In this document: piece by piece, positions 6,338 through 15,878 of the stretch
How the letters are laid out: every line of letters begins with the position of its first letter
How positions within the stretch are numbered: the stretch's first letter is position 1
From: Bacteroidetes bacterium HGW-Bacteroidetes-21
GTDB taxonomy: Bacteria > Bacteroidota > Bacteroidia > Bacteroidales > GWA2-32-17
Assembly: GCA_002840935.1 (NCBI GenBank)
Contig: PHDH01000002.1
Location: forward strand, 1 to 52,615
DNA length: 52,615 bases
Reading direction: 5' to 3'
Notes under the pieces: model-generated
The model's input: the letters and a program-made list of their open reading frames with translations, nothing else
Databases searched by the model: none
Told to the model about the DNA's origin: nothing
Made by a program: the position numbers and the translations under genes

Positions 6338-6952
6338 TTATTCTGCTTTCAAAAGTTCAATAATTTCGGATAATATCATGGCAGTTGCTCCCCATATGAT
6401 GTGACTATTAAAACGATAGCAGGGGATATTAAAAAGTTGATTTGCGTAATTAAGTTCGAAGTCTGACTTTGTCTCTGGGTCTAAAAGACGGGCAAAGGGA
6501 ATTTCAATAATCTCGTCAACTTCAATATCGTTTTTCGAAAAGTGGGGTCTGGATTCAAGCACACCCACAAAGGGGTGGACCATAAAATTACTTACAGGAA
6601 TAAACAAGGGAGATAGTCCTCCGGCAATTTCTCCAGATTTTATTTCTACTCCAATTTCTTCACGACATTCCCGAATGGCAGCTGCTTTTAAACTCGGATC
6701 TTCTTTTTCCATTTTTCCTCCGGGAAAGGCAATTTGTCCGCTGTGTGGACTTCTGTCTATTGTCCGTTTTATAAAGCATAAATTAAGCACATTGTCTATG
6801 GGGTAAAAAAGTGCCAACACACTACTGTTTACAGGAGGAGTTGAATGGGAAATTTTTAGAAACTCATAACGGGTTTCCGGCCACATATGCTTATGCGCCT
6901 TTTCGCCAGGAAGCGGCTGGCTTAAAGCATGTTGTATGCTTTCGAGTAGCAA
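6338..6952 (-). CDS. Nudix hydrolase, CoA-pyrophosphatase (NudL/UPF0035) type
   Basis: Encodes 204 residues from a TTG start at 6952. It is the only start between the upstream in-frame stop and the domain apart from a Met at residue 23. The sequence SGQIAFPGGKMEKEDPS followed by RECREEIG (Arg94, Glu95, Glu98, Glu99, Gly101) is the Nudix box with the preceding GQxAFPGG typical of the UPF0035 subfamily, whose members hydrolyse CoA and acyl-CoA to 4'-phosphopantetheine and 3',5'-ADP with Mg2+ or Mn2+. It begins two bases after the gatD stop, so it is almost certainly translated from the same message. The pairing with an amidotransferase has no obvious metabolic logic and may be simple operon packing. 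Confidence 0.85.
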   Translation of the reverse strand: MLLESIQHALSQPLPGEKAHKHMWPETRYEFLKISHSTPPVNSSVLALFYPIDNVLNLCFIKRTIDRSPHSGQIAFPGGKMEKEDPSLKAAAIRECREEIGVEIKSGEIAGGLSPLFIPVSNFMVHPFVGVLESRPHFSKNDIEVDEIIEIPFARLLDPETKSDFELNYANQLFNIPCYRFNSHIIWGATAMILSEIIELLKAE

Positions 6953-6954
6953 GT

Positions 6955-8340
6955 TTATTTATGATACTTTCTGATAAAATCTTCGACTTCTTTCACGCCA
7001 CCCTGATAGATCAGATATCCATTGTACGGTTCGCGGGGAGTAATTTCGTCGTTGATAGGTGTGAGCATAATTTCTTTTACCTTTTCGGTATCGCTGGTCT
7101 GGCCCAAAGCCCAACCCAGTTTAATGTAGGCTGTTTCGGGCAACATGTTTTCAGCCGGAACAATACCTTTAGCCATTAAGTCGCGGCCGGTATCATAAAC
7201 GAACATATGTACATATCCCCAAAGGGTCTGAACTGTCATATAAATTACGACACCTTTTTGCACGGCTCTTTCGATGGCAGGATAAATGGGTTTGTTTACG
7301 TGACCCAGTCCGGTACCGATCATGATAATACCTTTATAACCATTGTCCACCATGCTGTCGATCATGTCGGGCTGCATGTTGGTGTAGTAATATAACATAC
7401 CCACTTTTTCTTCGAAATAAGGCATGATGGTTACATTTCTGTCTTTGCGACGTGGTTTGTAATCTAGTTTCTGTGGAACAACGCCTTTGCGGGTTACAGT
7501 GGCAACGGGAATATCTCCGATGGTACGAAAAGTCGAGCGGTAGGAAGAGTGCATTTTTCTGACACGGGTACCTTTGTGTAGAAAACCATATTCGTCTGAA
7601 GTGGGTCCGAACATACATACCATAACTTCGGCAATATCGCCATGACCAGCAGCTGTGGCAGCATGCATGAGGTTTAAGGCTGCGTCAGAGCTGGGGCGAT
7701 CGGATGAACGCTGTGAACCAACAAGTATGATGGGAACGGGTGAGTTCTGTACCATGAAAGTCAAGGCTGCTGCGGTATAATGCAGGGTGTCGGTACCGTG
7801 ACCGATAATAATACCATCAATGCCATTCTCAATTTCTTTACCAATGGCAATGGCCAGTTTTTTATATTGTTCTGGCCCCATATTTTCGCTGAAAACTGCA
7901 AAAAGTTTGTCGGTGGTCAGATTACATATATCGGCTAGTTCGGGTACTGCACCGTATAATTCGCCAGGAGTAAAAGCGGGAATTACAGCTCCGGTGCGGT
8001 AGTCGAGACGGGATGCAATGGTTCCTCCGGTTCCCAGTAGTTTTACTTTTGGCAACCCAGGTGTAGTAGGGAATTCCTTCTCGGGAATCTTATAATTTGC
8101 TTTTTTGTAACCGGTTTCTTTCATTCCGGTGATAGTTGTAACGTCAATTCCGATATTGTAACCGGTGATGATTTTTACCACAATGTGTTGGTCGTCATCA
8201 TTCTCTGACCGGGGTAAAACGGTGCCTTTGAATTCGCCACGGGTTGTGTTGATTTCGGCCTGACCCCATACTCTTACGTTATATTTTTTAAGCAATTCGA
8301 GTGATTGCCCTTTATAACCCTGAAAAAAATCTTCGCTCAT
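6955..8340 (-). CDS. gatD: Archaeal-type Glu-tRNA(Gln) amidotransferase subunit D (GatD)
   Basis: Encodes 461 residues. GatD is the glutaminase subunit of GatDE: an asparaginase-like enzyme that releases ammonia for amidation of Glu-tRNA(Gln). Residues about 15-95 form the small N-terminal domain found in GatD but not in plain asparaginases. The asparaginase core then starts with LGTGGTIASRLDYRTGAV (nucleophile candidate Thr107), followed by GHGTDT (Thr183, Asp184) and a Lys in RVRKMHSS (Lys262). These four correspond to the catalytic set described for archaeal GatD. It starts 11 bp after gatE in the same direction and is followed 2 bp later by the Nudix gene. The N-terminal domain and the partner gatE argue against an ordinary L-asparaginase. 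GatDE is textbook-archaeal, so its presence in a Bacteroidota context is notable. Confidence 0.92.
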   Translation of the reverse strand: MSEDFFQGYKGQSLELLKKYNVRVWGQAEINTTRGEFKGTVLPRSENDDDQHIVVKIITGYNIGIDVTTITGMKETGYKKANYKIPEKEFPTTPGLPKVKLLGTGGTIASRLDYRTGAVIPAFTPGELYGAVPELADICNLTTDKLFAVFSENMGPEQYKKLAIAIGKEIENGIDGIIIGHGTDTLHYTAAALTFMVQNSPVPIILVGSQRSSDRPSSDAALNLMHAATAAGHGDIAEVMVCMFGPTSDEYGFLHKGTRVRKMHSSYRSTFRTIGDIPVATVTRKGVVPQKLDYKPRRKDRNVTIMPYFEEKVGMLYYYTNMQPDMIDSMVDNGYKGIIMIGTGLGHVNKPIYPAIERAVQKGVVIYMTVQTLWGYVHMFVYDTGRDLMAKGIVPAENMLPETAYIKLGWALGQTSDTEKVKEIMLTPINDEITPREPYNGYLIYQGGVKEVEDFIRKYHK

Positions 8341-8351
8341 TATTTCAAGTT

Positions 8352-10319
8352 TTAAGCTGATAAAATAATCTTTTTTAATTCACTGAGAGGAATGTTTCCT
8401 TCAGCCTGTGTGCGCAGTTGTCCCATGACCCAATTGGCTTCATTTTCTTTGTCCTTTATTCGGCCAATTTCTTTGTACTTGTCTTTCAAAAAGCCTATGG
8501 GTGCAGTAATCTCTTCTTTGCTGCGTTTTTTATAACGGAGTATTGTCAGGATGCTGTCGATATCCATGTTGGGGTGCATATATAATTCGGGAAGCATTTG
8601 CCATGCCAGTTCGTAATGTATGCCTTGTTGTTTCAGGAAAGCCAGTACATTATAAACTTTTTCAAAAGTAAATTCGGGAGATGCTGGATAATGTCCTTGT
8701 ATCCATTTAAGACGTTGAGATAAAAGGCGGGCAGTGAATGCAGGTGGAACACTCAGCTCTTTTTCGGCTTTTTCAATCATGGGAACCAGATTGTTGCGGA
8801 AAAGATAATGATGCAGATATTCGGAAACGCCCCATCCAAGTAGCTGTTTGTAACGGTCAATGACTTCCACAGGAAGGCTGTTACGTAGGTTTTCTATGTA
8901 ATCGTTTTCCAGAGGAATGGGTGCTGAGTCGGTGTCGGGATACATGCGGTCGGCTCCGGGAAGTACTCGTTCGAAAATGGTTGTGCCATCCACGAAAGAT
9001 TTTCTGGTTTCAAAGGGTATGCCCGTGAAGGCCATCAGACAGCGTTCCTGAATTACTTCAAGAGCCGTTTTTCTGTCGTTTTCGGGTCCCCAGAATATCA
9101 TCAGTGCGTCGTCGTCGCCGGCAGAAATCTGTGTTGCCAGTTTTTCCCATACTTCATTTTTAATGACGGGTTCGGGCATTTCACTATGAATCATGTTGGG
9201 CAGTTCGAGGCAAGCAATGACTTTCAGTCTTTCTTCAATTTCGTTGGCAAAACATTTTCCGGGCTGTGTGAAATGCGATAGAATGCCTTTGAATCCGGGC
9301 AATTTAACCAGAACAATCATGTGGTCCTGTCCTTTTCCTTTTTCAAGGGGCTCGTAGTCAGTGGTAAATTGCCCCTGATTAATATCCAAAGTTTCAATTT
9401 TCCATCCGGAAAAATCGGGGAAACGTTTCAGTAATTCGTCGCGGAGATGCAATAACGACCACTGGCGATAACATTCGTTATGTGTAAGTTCGGGAATCCA
9501 ACTGTTATGTGCTACTCCTTTGATTTCGATACGGGTGCCGCCTTTGCAGCTTACATTTACGTCTTCGCGACCAGCGCCAATACCGGTTCTTACTTTACCC
9601 GTACTGCGGTTCAGAAAACGTATATAGTTAGCGGCTTCTTTTACTTCGTCGGGATTGACCATGTCGGGATAAGTCACTGTTTCAATCAATGGCATGCCCA
9701 GTCGATCTGTCTTGTAAATACGTACATGGCCGATATCTGAAATTTCGCGACATGAATCTTCTTCAATACTCAGCTGAATGAGTCTTACTTTTTTATTTTT
9801 TAAAGGAATTTCGCCTTCAACACCTAGTATAGCGGTTCTTTGAAATCCTGTGGGAATACTGCCATCGAGATATTGTTTGCGGGTAATATGTACTTCACCT
9901 ACTACGTTCATTTTATTCAGAAGTGTGATTTCAAGAGCAATACCCAGCGCTTCACGATCGATTTTAAAGGGTGGGGTATCATCCACTTCATAAGTGCAAG
10001 CCGTTTCGTTTTTAATGCGGTAAACGATTTCCTTGCGGGTCTTAAATTCCATGAGGGCTGTGCCATCGTATTCGCCCAGTTCACTGAGGGTAGGACGCAT
10101 ATGTCGTACGATTTCGGCGTCATAATCGTCGCTGTGATTAAATTTTCCGGCAGGACAATGGCAAAAAAGCTTTTTCTTGGTCAGTAATTGCTGATGTACT
10201 TCAAGTCCAGACATAAAACCAATGCGATCGTAGTCGGCTTGAGTTGCTTTTTTACGCGGAACATATCCTATGATTTCACGCGTCTTGTCATAATTTTCTT
10301 TAGCATTAATCAATTTCAT
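8352..10319 (-). CDS. gatE: Archaeal-type Glu-tRNA(Gln) amidotransferase subunit E (GatE)
   Basis: Encodes 655 residues. GatE is the GatB-like subunit that binds Glu-tRNA(Gln), phosphorylates the glutamyl group and amidates it. The N-terminal GatB/GatE kinase-amidase core (about residues 30-260) contains GFMSGLEVHQQL, IQLSIEEDSCREI and RTGIGAGREDVNVS. Between about 280 and 420 lies the GatE-specific insertion resembling the AspRS GAD domain (LVKLPGFKGILSHFTQPGKCFANE), which GatB lacks; ADRMYPDTDSAPIP follows. The C-terminus is a helical tail domain. Length is near that of archaeal GatE (about 620-640). It is the first gene of the group with gatD. A degenerate -7 box (CATTTTTG, minus strand, 10351-10358) lies about 30 bp upstream. 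Assignment as GatE rather than GatB is firm because of the insertion and the GatD partner. Confidence 0.93.
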   Translation of the reverse strand: MKLINAKENYDKTREIIGYVPRKKATQADYDRIGFMSGLEVHQQLLTKKKLFCHCPAGKFNHSDDYDAEIVRHMRPTLSELGEYDGTALMEFKTRKEIVYRIKNETACTYEVDDTPPFKIDREALGIALEITLLNKMNVVGEVHITRKQYLDGSIPTGFQRTAILGVEGEIPLKNKKVRLIQLSIEEDSCREISDIGHVRIYKTDRLGMPLIETVTYPDMVNPDEVKEAANYIRFLNRSTGKVRTGIGAGREDVNVSCKGGTRIEIKGVAHNSWIPELTHNECYRQWSLLHLRDELLKRFPDFSGWKIETLDINQGQFTTDYEPLEKGKGQDHMIVLVKLPGFKGILSHFTQPGKCFANEIEERLKVIACLELPNMIHSEMPEPVIKNEVWEKLATQISAGDDDALMIFWGPENDRKTALEVIQERCLMAFTGIPFETRKSFVDGTTIFERVLPGADRMYPDTDSAPIPLENDYIENLRNSLPVEVIDRYKQLLGWGVSEYLHHYLFRNNLVPMIEKAEKELSVPPAFTARLLSQRLKWIQGHYPASPEFTFEKVYNVLAFLKQQGIHYELAWQMLPELYMHPNMDIDSILTILRYKKRSKEEITAPIGFLKDKYKEIGRIKDKENEANWVMGQLRTQAEGNIPLSELKKIILSA

Positions 10320-12212: not shown

Positions 12213-15200
12213 CTATTTTGCCCAAATGCCAAAATCATTCTCAATATTTTCTTGTCGCATGGTAGGTTTTTGTTTGCCTCCGGTGAGTTTTTGCACGTTT
12301 TCGAGGATGTATTTTTGCAGTTCAGACACGGTAATCTGATGGTCTTTGTTCAGGTCGGCAAGTCCGGACAATAGCCCTTCGCGAAGCGAATAGGTAAATA
12401 CGCCATTTTTCCATTGTTCTCCCTCGAAAGCAAACTCGCCTCCCCCTGCCGAGGAGATCACCACAGCGCCCGTTCCTTTGCGAAGATCAGCGAAAAGCTC
12501 CTTCATAAGCTCAAACGAATTATTATAGCTGAGCGTTGTGTTAGACTGATAACCTCTGGGTTTCACGCCTCTGAATATGACATCTTTTTCGGTCGTTGTT
12601 TGTGCTACTATTTGCGTTTCTGCATCTTTATCCACTTCTCCGGAATGGCAGGCGTCGATGAGTAAAAGCTTTTCGCGTGCCGGGATGGAATCGAGTAGTC
12701 TGTCCAGTTCTTCGTATTTCAGACCGCCTTCTGAAGGCTTATTGAAATTTATGTTGTAAGTAGCCAGGTAATAATCAAGGTTCTCATCCAATAATCCATG
12801 CCCTGCATAAAAGACGAGTACTTTGTCGTCAACTTTTGTGTTGCTAAGTAATTCCTTTACTTTTTTAATATTTCCTATGGTTACATCTTTGTTAAGAATT
12901 ACGCGGGTAGTGATTTTCCCGTAGTTGTTCTTTTGGTTCTCAAAAAGCGAGATAACATCACTGGCATCCTTAGCGGCAAAAGAGAGATTCCACTCAGGAT
13001 CTGCGTATTCTGAAGCACCAATAGCAATGACATACAAATCCGGTTTTGCTTGTCCGGCACTGGTGCAGATGATTTCAACCGTTTCTCTCAGGCTTTCAAC
13101 CCCTTTTTCGTTCATGCATGAAACCCTGACTTTGTTTGTTCCTTGCGAAAGGGTCAGGGTTATTTCGCGGGAAAACTCTTTCAGGTTTTTATCGCGCAAC
13201 GAAAAACCTTGAGATCCGAAAACAGCAACGTCGTTTACCCAGACATTCATTCGGTCGAGATAATACTTGCTGTCTTTTGCCACGAGGGTGAATGTAAGTG
13301 ATGAATTTTCAGTAAGAACAGGAATTTTATCTGCTTCTGTAATCACTATTTCAGGAAGATGAAAATCGTTGGCAAACATTTCTTCTGTAAAACCACTTTT
13401 TTGTAGTCGTTTTGCATATGCCATATGTAGCGCTTTAACCATCTCTGGCGTGGCGCATCCAAGTCGTTCCATGACAATGTCGGGACGGTTGTATTGAAGA
13501 TCGAATTGTTCAAAGGGATAAAATTTTAGCCCGAATGTAAACCCAATTTCTTTTTTAGCATTTTTTGTTGAATAATAGAAATAATCGGGGGTCTTAATGA
13601 TAAAATCACTGTTGTTCATTGTAAATAAGGTGGCAATCTCTTTCCCGCTATTGATATCCCAAATTTTCATGGACCCATCTAGCGACGATGTGACTAACTG
13701 TTTTCCGCCAGTTATAAATGCTGCTCCAGTGAGAGAATCGCTGTGCCCCGTGTACTTACTTGTAATTTTTTGTTGCTCGATATCAAATTTGACCATGGAG
13801 TGGGTCTGATCCTGAAAAAGAAATGATTTTCCATCGGAAGCATAGAGTAAAGGTCCTTTTCCTGAAGTAATTACTTTAACAGAATCCCTTTTGTAGTCAA
13901 ATATAAGAATTTTATCTTTTTCATCAGCTATCAGCATAGTATCGTTAACAGGACTGAAGCAGAAAGATTTTATTTCGTATTGAAAATCAAATGTTTTAAT
14001 TGGTTTTGTCTGTTGTAAATCCCATATTTTTAATGAATTATATGAGTCGTAAAGAACCGTGTTTTGAGATAAAGTTTTTACTGCCAGATACATGCCCAGG
14101 ACAGGTACCAGAAGAGAAATCGCCATGTTTTTACTAAATTTTTTTGAAAGTGCAGGTGCTCCTGTCTTATAATCTCGTCCACTACAGGCAAAAATGGAAG
14201 AATTATAATTAAAACCGATGCAATCTATAGATTTGTAATGTGCGCCAATAACTTTTTCTTTCTTTAATTCTGCAGTGTTAATTAGATGGATGGGGAAAAT
14301 ACGGGGTGCGAAAAATCGATAAAGAATGCCTTTGTTGAATCCTTTTCCCCCTGAAGCATAATATTTTCGATTGGGTGAAACGGCTGATACATCTTGTGAT
14401 TCGAAATTTCCCCACAGGAATTTTCGGGCATAATCAAAGGAAGTTATAGTATTAAGAAAAACCGTGTACAAAGGTGCATTTGCGATAGCATTATACCACC
14501 TGGGATTATGATTTCCTTTAATCTTTGCTGTGGAGCCCGTTTTCATATTGGAAAAAGCAATACGATTATCACTGCCTGAGGAAACCAACATCGTATCGGA
14601 GACGAAATGCATTCCGGTGACTTTACCCTGATGCCCGGAAAAGCCCATAATAGAAATTTTGTTATCAAGGAAAATGGAACTAATAAAGTGATCGCTTCCT
14701 CCCAGGGCAATATAGCTGCCTTCGGGATTGACCGCCATTTGAACAATAGGATGGATGCCACTTTCGAGCTTGCGAACGATTTGATTATTGCTAATGTCAA
14801 TGACAACAACATCCCCCGACTTGTTTCCTGCAATTAGAATGTTTTTATGCAGTGGATGAAAAACCACTGAAGTATAAATATTGAGAGGATCTGCAAATAT
14901 TTGCAGAAAGGCTCCTGAGCTTTTCCATTTGTAAATATTTCCATCTTCATTTACAGCTGTTAGAATGGAATCGTTAGCATTTAAAGAGATACTAATGAAA
15001 TTCTTTTTTCTAAAATCGCCTGAACGAGTATAGGTGACTTTTTCTTTTATTGGATCGAAGCAAGATATTCTAGATGGAACACAGGATATAAATAGTTTTG
15101 CTTTTTCTATTTTATGGTAGATAATATTTGCTTTGCATGGGATAGTCATTTTCTCGGAGCCATCCCACGAGAGCATTTTTGTGTCAAAATAGGAAAAGAA

Positions 15201-15878
15201 ATTATAGCCCGATAATAAGGAAATGGCCCTTGCAGCAATAATTTCTGTCTCGTTGGATCCAAAAACAACCGAAACGCCAGCGGGTATTGGCTTGTATATT
15301 TGGGAAAACATGGACATCAATTTCCCTGTTTTTTTATAACTCTTTTTTATTCCGCTTTTTTTAAGGAGAGTCTCAAAATATTTAATACTATCAGCTGATG
15401 ACCACAGGGTAATATCCTTGTCGAAAACAATTTTTTCAGAAATTTTCCAACATCTAATAAAAGAAAAAATCCCCGTGGCTATTAGATGTGCATCGTTTTC
15501 ACTGATGTCAAAAGATAAAACGGGCTGTTTCATTTGAATGGATTCTTTGATACTCCCTTCCTCGATATTCCAGAACAGAATCTGACCATCATTGCCGGCA
15601 GAAATAAGTTGATTGTTATGGTGTAGAAACTGAATTGCATTAATCTTCTGGCTATGTCCTTTTAAAACTTTTAACTGCTTTCCCAACCTGAAATCCCAAA
15701 TGATAATAATGTTATCGGCACCAGCTGTAGCCAACAGGGTTCCATCTTGATTAAAAGCCATTGTAGTCACGGGAGCCGAGTGGCCCGTTTGCAACGTGAG
15801 TTCTGGGTTTTGTCCCCAAAGAATGGGAGTAGCCAGGACAAACAACAAAAGCAATAACTGTTTTTTTATCATTGCCAT
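12213..15878 (-). CDS. Exported WD40-repeat caspase-like (C14) peptidase
   Basis: Encodes 1221 residues. A signal peptide ends near residue 22 (TPILWGQ). Residues about 25-800 are WD40-type propeller repeats (examples: GHSAPVTTMAFNQDGTLLATAGADNIIIIWD; GHSDSLTGAAFITGGKQLVTSSLDGSMKIWD). Then comes a linker starting PFEQFDLQYNRPDI and an Ig-like stretch (VNDVAVFGSQGFSL). The C-terminal caspase-like domain starts at KPDLYVIAIGASEY (about 945), with the His/Cys dyad in YAGHG (about His1027) and DACHSG (about Cys1077). It is the last gene of a five-gene unit, 3 bp after the VWA-like lipoprotein. Because it is exported, it should act in the periplasm or on the surface, not as a cytoplasmic suicide effector. 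Start could be ATG 15878 or the Met two codons later. Confidence 0.9.
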   Translation of the reverse strand: MAMIKKQLLLLLFVLATPILWGQNPELTLQTGHSAPVTTMAFNQDGTLLATAGADNIIIIWDFRLGKQLKVLKGHSQKINAIQFLHHNNQLISAGNDGQILFWNIEEGSIKESIQMKQPVLSFDISENDAHLIATGIFSFIRCWKISEKIVFDKDITLWSSADSIKYFETLLKKSGIKKSYKKTGKLMSMFSQIYKPIPAGVSVVFGSNETEIIAARAISLLSGYNFFSYFDTKMLSWDGSEKMTIPCKANIIYHKIEKAKLFISCVPSRISCFDPIKEKVTYTRSGDFRKKNFISISLNANDSILTAVNEDGNIYKWKSSGAFLQIFADPLNIYTSVVFHPLHKNILIAGNKSGDVVVIDISNNQIVRKLESGIHPIVQMAVNPEGSYIALGGSDHFISSIFLDNKISIMGFSGHQGKVTGMHFVSDTMLVSSGSDNRIAFSNMKTGSTAKIKGNHNPRWYNAIANAPLYTVFLNTITSFDYARKFLWGNFESQDVSAVSPNRKYYASGGKGFNKGILYRFFAPRIFPIHLINTAELKKEKVIGAHYKSIDCIGFNYNSSIFACSGRDYKTGAPALSKKFSKNMAISLLVPVLGMYLAVKTLSQNTVLYDSYNSLKIWDLQQTKPIKTFDFQYEIKSFCFSPVNDTMLIADEKDKILIFDYKRDSVKVITSGKGPLLYASDGKSFLFQDQTHSMVKFDIEQQKITSKYTGHSDSLTGAAFITGGKQLVTSSLDGSMKIWDINSGKEIATLFTMNNSDFIIKTPDYFYYSTKNAKKEIGFTFGLKFYPFEQFDLQYNRPDIVMERLGCATPEMVKALHMAYAKRLQKSGFTEEMFANDFHLPEIVITEADKIPVLTENSSLTFTLVAKDSKYYLDRMNVWVNDVAVFGSQGFSLRDKNLKEFSREITLTLSQGTNKVRVSCMNEKGVESLRETVEIICTSAGQAKPDLYVIAIGASEYADPEWNLSFAAKDASDVISLFENQKNNYGKITTRVILNKDVTIGNIKKVKELLSNTKVDDKVLVFYAGHGLLDENLDYYLATYNINFNKPSEGGLKYEELDRLLDSIPAREKLLLIDACHSGEVDKDAETQIVAQTTTEKDVIFRGVKPRGYQSNTTLSYNNSFELMKELFADLRKGTGAVVISSAGGGEFAFEGEQWKNGVFTYSLREGLLSGLADLNKDHQITVSELQKYILENVQKLTGGKQKPTMRQENIENDFGIWAK

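Follow-up and report, generated by a model that had tools for sequence, protein, structure and literature searches.

The tRNA-dependent amidotransferase GatDE is described in reviews of 2021 (PMC8007984) and 2022 (PMC9499178) as found in archaea only, and the preliminary description of the DNA analysed here called it the archaeal route to Gln-tRNA(Gln). According to one proposal, archaea have stayed without GlnRS because GatDE and their tRNA-Gln co-evolved. Archaeal GatDE has been reported to read the A1-U72 pair of tRNA-Gln and bacterial GatCAB to recognise U1-A72 (PMC4206432), and according to one review base 73 of this tRNA is G in bacteria and A in archaea. In Deinococcus, Thermus and Bdellovibrio, GatCAB is believed to serve the synthesis of Asn on its tRNA in genomes that have no asparagine synthetase (PMC4206432). 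For Bacteroidetes with GlnRS, a 2014 survey of bacterial GluRS and GlnRS (PMC3927822) concluded from the absence of GatCAB that the indirect route is defunct and that GluRS is discriminating. A full-text literature search, with subscription papers outside its scope, found no description of bacterial GatDE; the KEGG entry K03330 (GatE) appears in a gut microbiome table (PMC5530560). The NCBI models recognise the proteins described below, so that automatic annotation would already carry the names GatD and GatE.

Identity of the gatE-gatD pair

The stretch of DNA analysed (hereafter the window; 52,615 nucleotides of contig PHDH01000002.1) comes from Bacteroidetes bacterium HGW-Bacteroidetes-21, a genome that is 88% complete and is called G000 here. 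As the preliminary description had reported, it carries a two-gene unit on the minus strand, in the order gatE (8352-10319, 655 aa), an 11 nt gap, and gatD (6955-8340, 461 aa), and both reading frames are intact. A Nudix hydrolase gene (6338-6952, minus strand; Pfam NUDIX, with a CoA pyrophosphatase model as top NCBIfam match, under its cut-off) starts 2 nt downstream of gatD and is probably co-transcribed with the pair, a shared function being a candidate only; in a comparison of gene neighbourhoods it was the sole recurring neighbour, following gatD in 11 of 81 loci. By Pfam and NCBIfam the flanking genes (a T9SS-sorted protein, ArfB, the Nudix hydrolase and methylmalonyl-CoA mutase) are bacterial, as had been noted, and the GC contents of gatD (0.44) and gatE (0.43) lie inside the range of the neighbours (0.39-0.47). 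Elsewhere in the window are a candidate cis-regulatory Rfam DUF805b RNA motif (RF02914; 200-234, minus strand; score 38.3 bits, cut-off 35.6) and a gene (12213-15878, minus strand) whose 1221 aa product combines WD40 repeats with a caspase-like (Peptidase C14) domain at its C-terminus.

The gatD product, a predicted asparaginase-like, ammonia-releasing subunit, matched Pfam GatD_N, Asparaginase and Asparaginase_C and scored 494 bits against the NCBIfam equivalogs PRK04183.1 and TIGR02153 (cut-offs 310 and 324). The gatE product, with a kinase/transamidase core, an AspRS-like insertion and a helical and tail part, reached 471 and 407 bits with its own equivalogs, PRK04028.1 and TIGR00134 (cut-offs 456 and 320). 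The top PDB relatives by sequence were the archaeal GatDE structures 1zq1 and 2d6f (E 3e-116 for GatD and 2e-84 for GatE), with GatB far weaker, and a Foldseek search with a predicted GatE structure (AlphaFold2, mean pLDDT 86.6) also placed 1zq1_C and 2d6f best, with TM scores by target of 0.79-0.81 and 0.56-0.73 for GatB chains. Thr107, Thr183, Asp184 and Lys262, correctly picked out beforehand as the catalytic residues of GatD, align with Thr101, Thr177, Asp178 and Lys254 of Methanothermobacter thermautotrophicus GatD, and none of the four varies among the 112 bacterial GatDs compared; core residues common to both archaeal GatEs are likewise kept in 139 bacterial GatEs. Two other identities were rejected. 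With the GatB models GatE reached 105-107 bits, where the cut-offs are 315-338, and a stand-alone L-asparaginase is at odds with the GatD_N domain and the adjacent gatE. On these profile and structural grounds the earlier naming stands, and the pair is a real, correctly named GatDE, a known family in a new biological setting.

Overall, GatE is about 32-35% identical to archaeal GatE, and this identity is unevenly spread: the core reaches 41-44% and the insertion 21-22% against the archaeal enzymes, and in the comparison with Pyrococcus abyssi the values are 44% for the core, 22% for the insertion and 18% for the tRNA-contacting helical and tail part, the most diverged portion of the protein. 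The AspRS-like insertion that had been proposed from the sequence is seen in both the alignment and the model; it is strongly diverged, however, and Pfam GAD matches it only at E 0.074, under the cut-off, compared with 1e-19 in P. abyssi. Pfam YqeY is also under its cut-off in the window GatE and above it in the relatives L005, L030 and L089. Divergence of the tRNA-contacting tail could mean that another tRNA is bound. In close pairs of genomes, dN/dS was 0.02-0.07 for both genes, and this strong purifying selection indicates an enzyme in use. One Aminicenantes pair (L107 and L113) was an outlier, with values of 0.33 for GatE and 0.5 for GatD, possibly because of assembly frameshifts; the L107 GatD also sits on a long branch.

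Distribution and phylogeny

The pair had been presented as a one-off in a Bacteroidota genome, and this framing proved wrong. When species of the window's order were sampled evenly, GatE was found in 124 of 295 (in 100 of the 243 good-quality genomes and 82 of 184 genera), the carriers including three more genomes of the window's own family; about half of the order is without GatDE. Across the phylum, 30 of 395 sampled genomes had a GatE above cut-off, and 29 of the 30 belong to other classes. The best 80 named GatE relatives were almost all Bacteroidales; among the 80 are isolates (Marinifilum, Labilibaculum, Perlabentimonas) as well as metagenome-assembled genomes (MAGs) of Aminicenantes, Zixibacteria and Planctomycetota. 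In the phylum to which one of these Aminicenantes genomes belongs (Acidobacteriota in GTDB), GatE was present in 24 of 199 genomes. Almost every locus with both genes has gatE adjoining gatD, and the two-gene unit is kept across classes and phyla.

In GatE trees the window sequence groups with that of a same-family genome and with other Bacteroidales. Bacterial GatE falls into two main groups: the first consists mostly of sequences from other Bacteroidota classes, together with several genomes of the Aminicenantes phylum, and the second comprises Bacteroidales, Aminicenantes and Zixibacteria. In the GatD tree a long branch with full support separates the bacteria from the two archaeal sequences, and in the GatE tree bacterial monophyly is possible but weakly supported (36); the archaeal side of both trees consists of these two sequences, and a search of viral contigs for further archaeal ones found none. 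Two very divergent bacterial GatE lineages on long branches were also seen, L030 (G357) and L263 (G872); the L030 GatE is only 36-38% identical to that of the window and may have a separate origin. Contamination or a misbinned contig was rejected, as the pair also occurs in other genomes of the family and the proteins cluster together. The same clustering, with the wide occurrence of the pair, speaks against lateral transfer as an isolated event, one of the explanations first offered.

GlnRS, GatB and tRNA-Gln in GatDE-bearing genomes

G000 encodes two synthetases of the GluRS/GlnRS family, an intact GlnRS (565 aa; 734 bits, cut-off 426) and a single GluRS (511 aa), as well as AsnRS. No GatB above cut-off was found in this genome, its sole GatB_N match being the gatE gene. 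GatDE is thus not needed for the supply of Gln-tRNA(Gln), since GlnRS is present, nor for Asn, since AsnRS is present. Of 58 GatDE-bearing genome entries, 53 had a GlnRS above cut-off; among the other five, GatB is present in three, the GlnRS of a fourth is fragmented and the fifth is a partial MAG. In a second set from the window's order, all 15 GatDE-bearing and all 15 GatDE-lacking genomes had GlnRS. GatDE and GlnRS therefore occur together in 68 of 73 genome entries, a figure that counts entries, since one genome at the least was entered in each set under a different handle (G399, G475). The same pattern in single-contig assemblies (G132, G294, G124, G633) and in isolates (G413-G415) shows that it is no binning effect. 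GatB was above cut-off in 24 of the 58 GatDE-bearing entries, none of them Bacteroidales, and was also absent from all 21 other genomes labelled Bacteroidales or Bacteroidetes in that set. Replacement of GlnRS or GatCAB by GatDE, another of the early suggestions, is accordingly rejected, although GatB is indeed absent from G000.

GatDE was the sole route in no adequately complete genome. One 1.37 Mb MAG with neither GlnRS nor GatB (G412) was rejected as such a case; it was judged incomplete because it has 26 tRNAs for 18 amino acids and because a close relative (G411, L077) has GlnRS. Two Bacteroidota genomes from another class, both close to complete (G287 and G314; L007 and L006), are without GlnRS and have both GatCAB and GatDE, and these must charge tRNA-Gln indirectly.

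The two tRNA-Gln genes of G000 (UUG and CUG) each have U1-A72, the bacterial rather than the archaeal pair, and A73. All 51 tRNA-Gln genes from 16 GatDE-bearing and 15 GatDE-lacking genomes of the order likewise have U1-A72, and neither the 1-72 pair nor base 73 differed between the two groups of genomes among these genes. All 51 have A73 (L134:1500-1571, L139:370-442 and 30 further genomes), in contrast to the G73 reviewed as bacterial. In GluRS, Arg358 (T. thermophilus numbering), which distinguishes C36 from G36 and is the usual sign of discrimination, was present in all 31 genomes, 16 GatDE-bearing and 15 GatDE-lacking. It was also present in the GlnRS-less G287 and G314 (GluRS in L269 and L270), and so cannot separate a discriminating from a relaxed GluRS here; as a marker it was rejected as uninformative. 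A one-residue Ala insertion in GluRS occurs in 12 of 15 GatDE-lacking and 0 of 16 GatDE-bearing genomes (alignment of L173-L202), a pattern that is probably due to shared ancestry.

Discussion

GatDE is commoner in bacteria than the preliminary description supposed, and it is more puzzling there, since it stands beside GlnRS. On balance we think it probable that the window pair is an active Glu-tRNA(Gln) amidotransferase that works alongside GlnRS in an accessory or repair role, and, as part of the same reading, we propose that GatDE is an old, largely vertically inherited trait of Bacteroidales. The gatE-gatD unit would give a competent heterodimer in which GatD frees ammonia from an amide donor and GatE activates the tRNA-bound Glu of Glu-tRNA(Gln) and amidates it, giving Gln-tRNA(Gln); the anatomy of the two proteins agrees with this established chemistry. 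GlnRS would make the bulk of Gln-tRNA(Gln) directly, Glu-tRNA(Gln) would arise through misacylation by GluRS (or GlnRS), and GatDE would turn the misacylated product into the correct one; an alternative accessory role would be a top-up when glutamine is scarce. That GlnRS is nearly always kept argues for such an accessory role, most simply repair or top-up, and the early idea that GatDE corrects Glu-tRNA(Gln) from a relaxed GluRS survives as a candidate. Against this explanation stand the lack of an informative difference in tRNA-Gln or GluRS between GatDE-bearing and GatDE-lacking genomes, the divergence of the tRNA-contacting part of GatE and the half or so of the order without GatDE.

A neofunctionalised GatDE could instead amidate another Glu- or Asp-tRNA, or a carboxylate that is not on a tRNA, in place of Glu-tRNA(Gln). 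Both amide aminoacyl-tRNAs are already supplied by GlnRS and AsnRS, the insertion and the tRNA-binding part have strongly diverged, and tRNA-Gln carries U1-A72 where archaeal GatDE is reported to read A1-U72; however, the equivalog scores and the conserved active site favour the original activity, and because recognition of U1-A72 has been reported for bacterial GatCAB (PMC4206432), only a modest change would be needed to read that pair. We therefore consider neofunctionalisation unlikely. Rather improbable as well is GatDE as a redundant main route, in which a non-discriminating GluRS feeds GatDE, much of the Gln-tRNA(Gln) comes from GatDE and GlnRS is partly dispensable: the GlnRS-less G287 and G314, which have GatCAB plus GatDE and must go indirect, have a GluRS that resembles the others at position 358, but hardly any GatDE-bearing genome is without GlnRS, and the one candidate for GatDE alone, G412, is an incomplete MAG. 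Recent acquisition from an archaeon, or misbinning of an archaeal contig, would fit the archaeal origin of the top PDB matches, although the GatDE structures in the PDB are archaeal only. The nearest relatives are Bacteroidales, same-family genomes included, the flanking genes are bacterial, gatD and gatE match their neighbours in GC content, and the long branch splits bacterial from archaeal GatD, so that recent transfer or misbinning is improbable to the point that we regard it as ruled out; ancient transfer and ancient inheritance are both compatible with trees that hold two archaeal sequences.

A broader form of the repair reading, in which bacterial GatDE is a widespread, previously undescribed system that repairs Glu-tRNA(Gln) beside GlnRS and reads bacterial-type tRNA-Gln, is put forward tentatively, as somewhat short of an even chance. 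If it holds, the view of GatDE as archaea-only is overturned, and GlnRS without GatCAB no longer implies that bacteria are without an indirect glutamine route. The presence of GatDE, together with GlnRS, in roughly two fifths of the species sampled from the order itself removes the basis of the 2014 conclusion for Bacteroidetes (PMC3927822). Cultivable strains with GatDE make specificity, coexistence with GlnRS and origin testable.

Among known systems, the archaeal enzymes (P. abyssi, 1zq1; M. thermautotrophicus, 2d6f) resemble the window pair in their two subunits, in the GatD tetrad and GatE core residues and, by the model, in a GatE fold with a putative insertion and helical tail. They differ in that the insertion and tail of the window GatE have strongly diverged and in their hosts, which have no GlnRS and an A1-U72 tRNA-Gln, whereas the window host has GlnRS and U1-A72; this archaeal setting is a property of the hosts and not of the GatDE protein family. 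With bacterial GatCAB the pair would have the type of reaction in common, GatB and GatE having a catalytic core in common, but the window GatE lies far under the GatB cut-offs and pairs with GatD rather than with GatA and GatC, in a genome without GatB. A parallel in arrangement is offered by Deinococcus, Thermus and Bdellovibrio, in which a tRNA-dependent amidotransferase is likewise retained beside the direct synthetases GlnRS and AsnRS; there the amidotransferase retained is GatCAB, and in the window genome it is GatDE.
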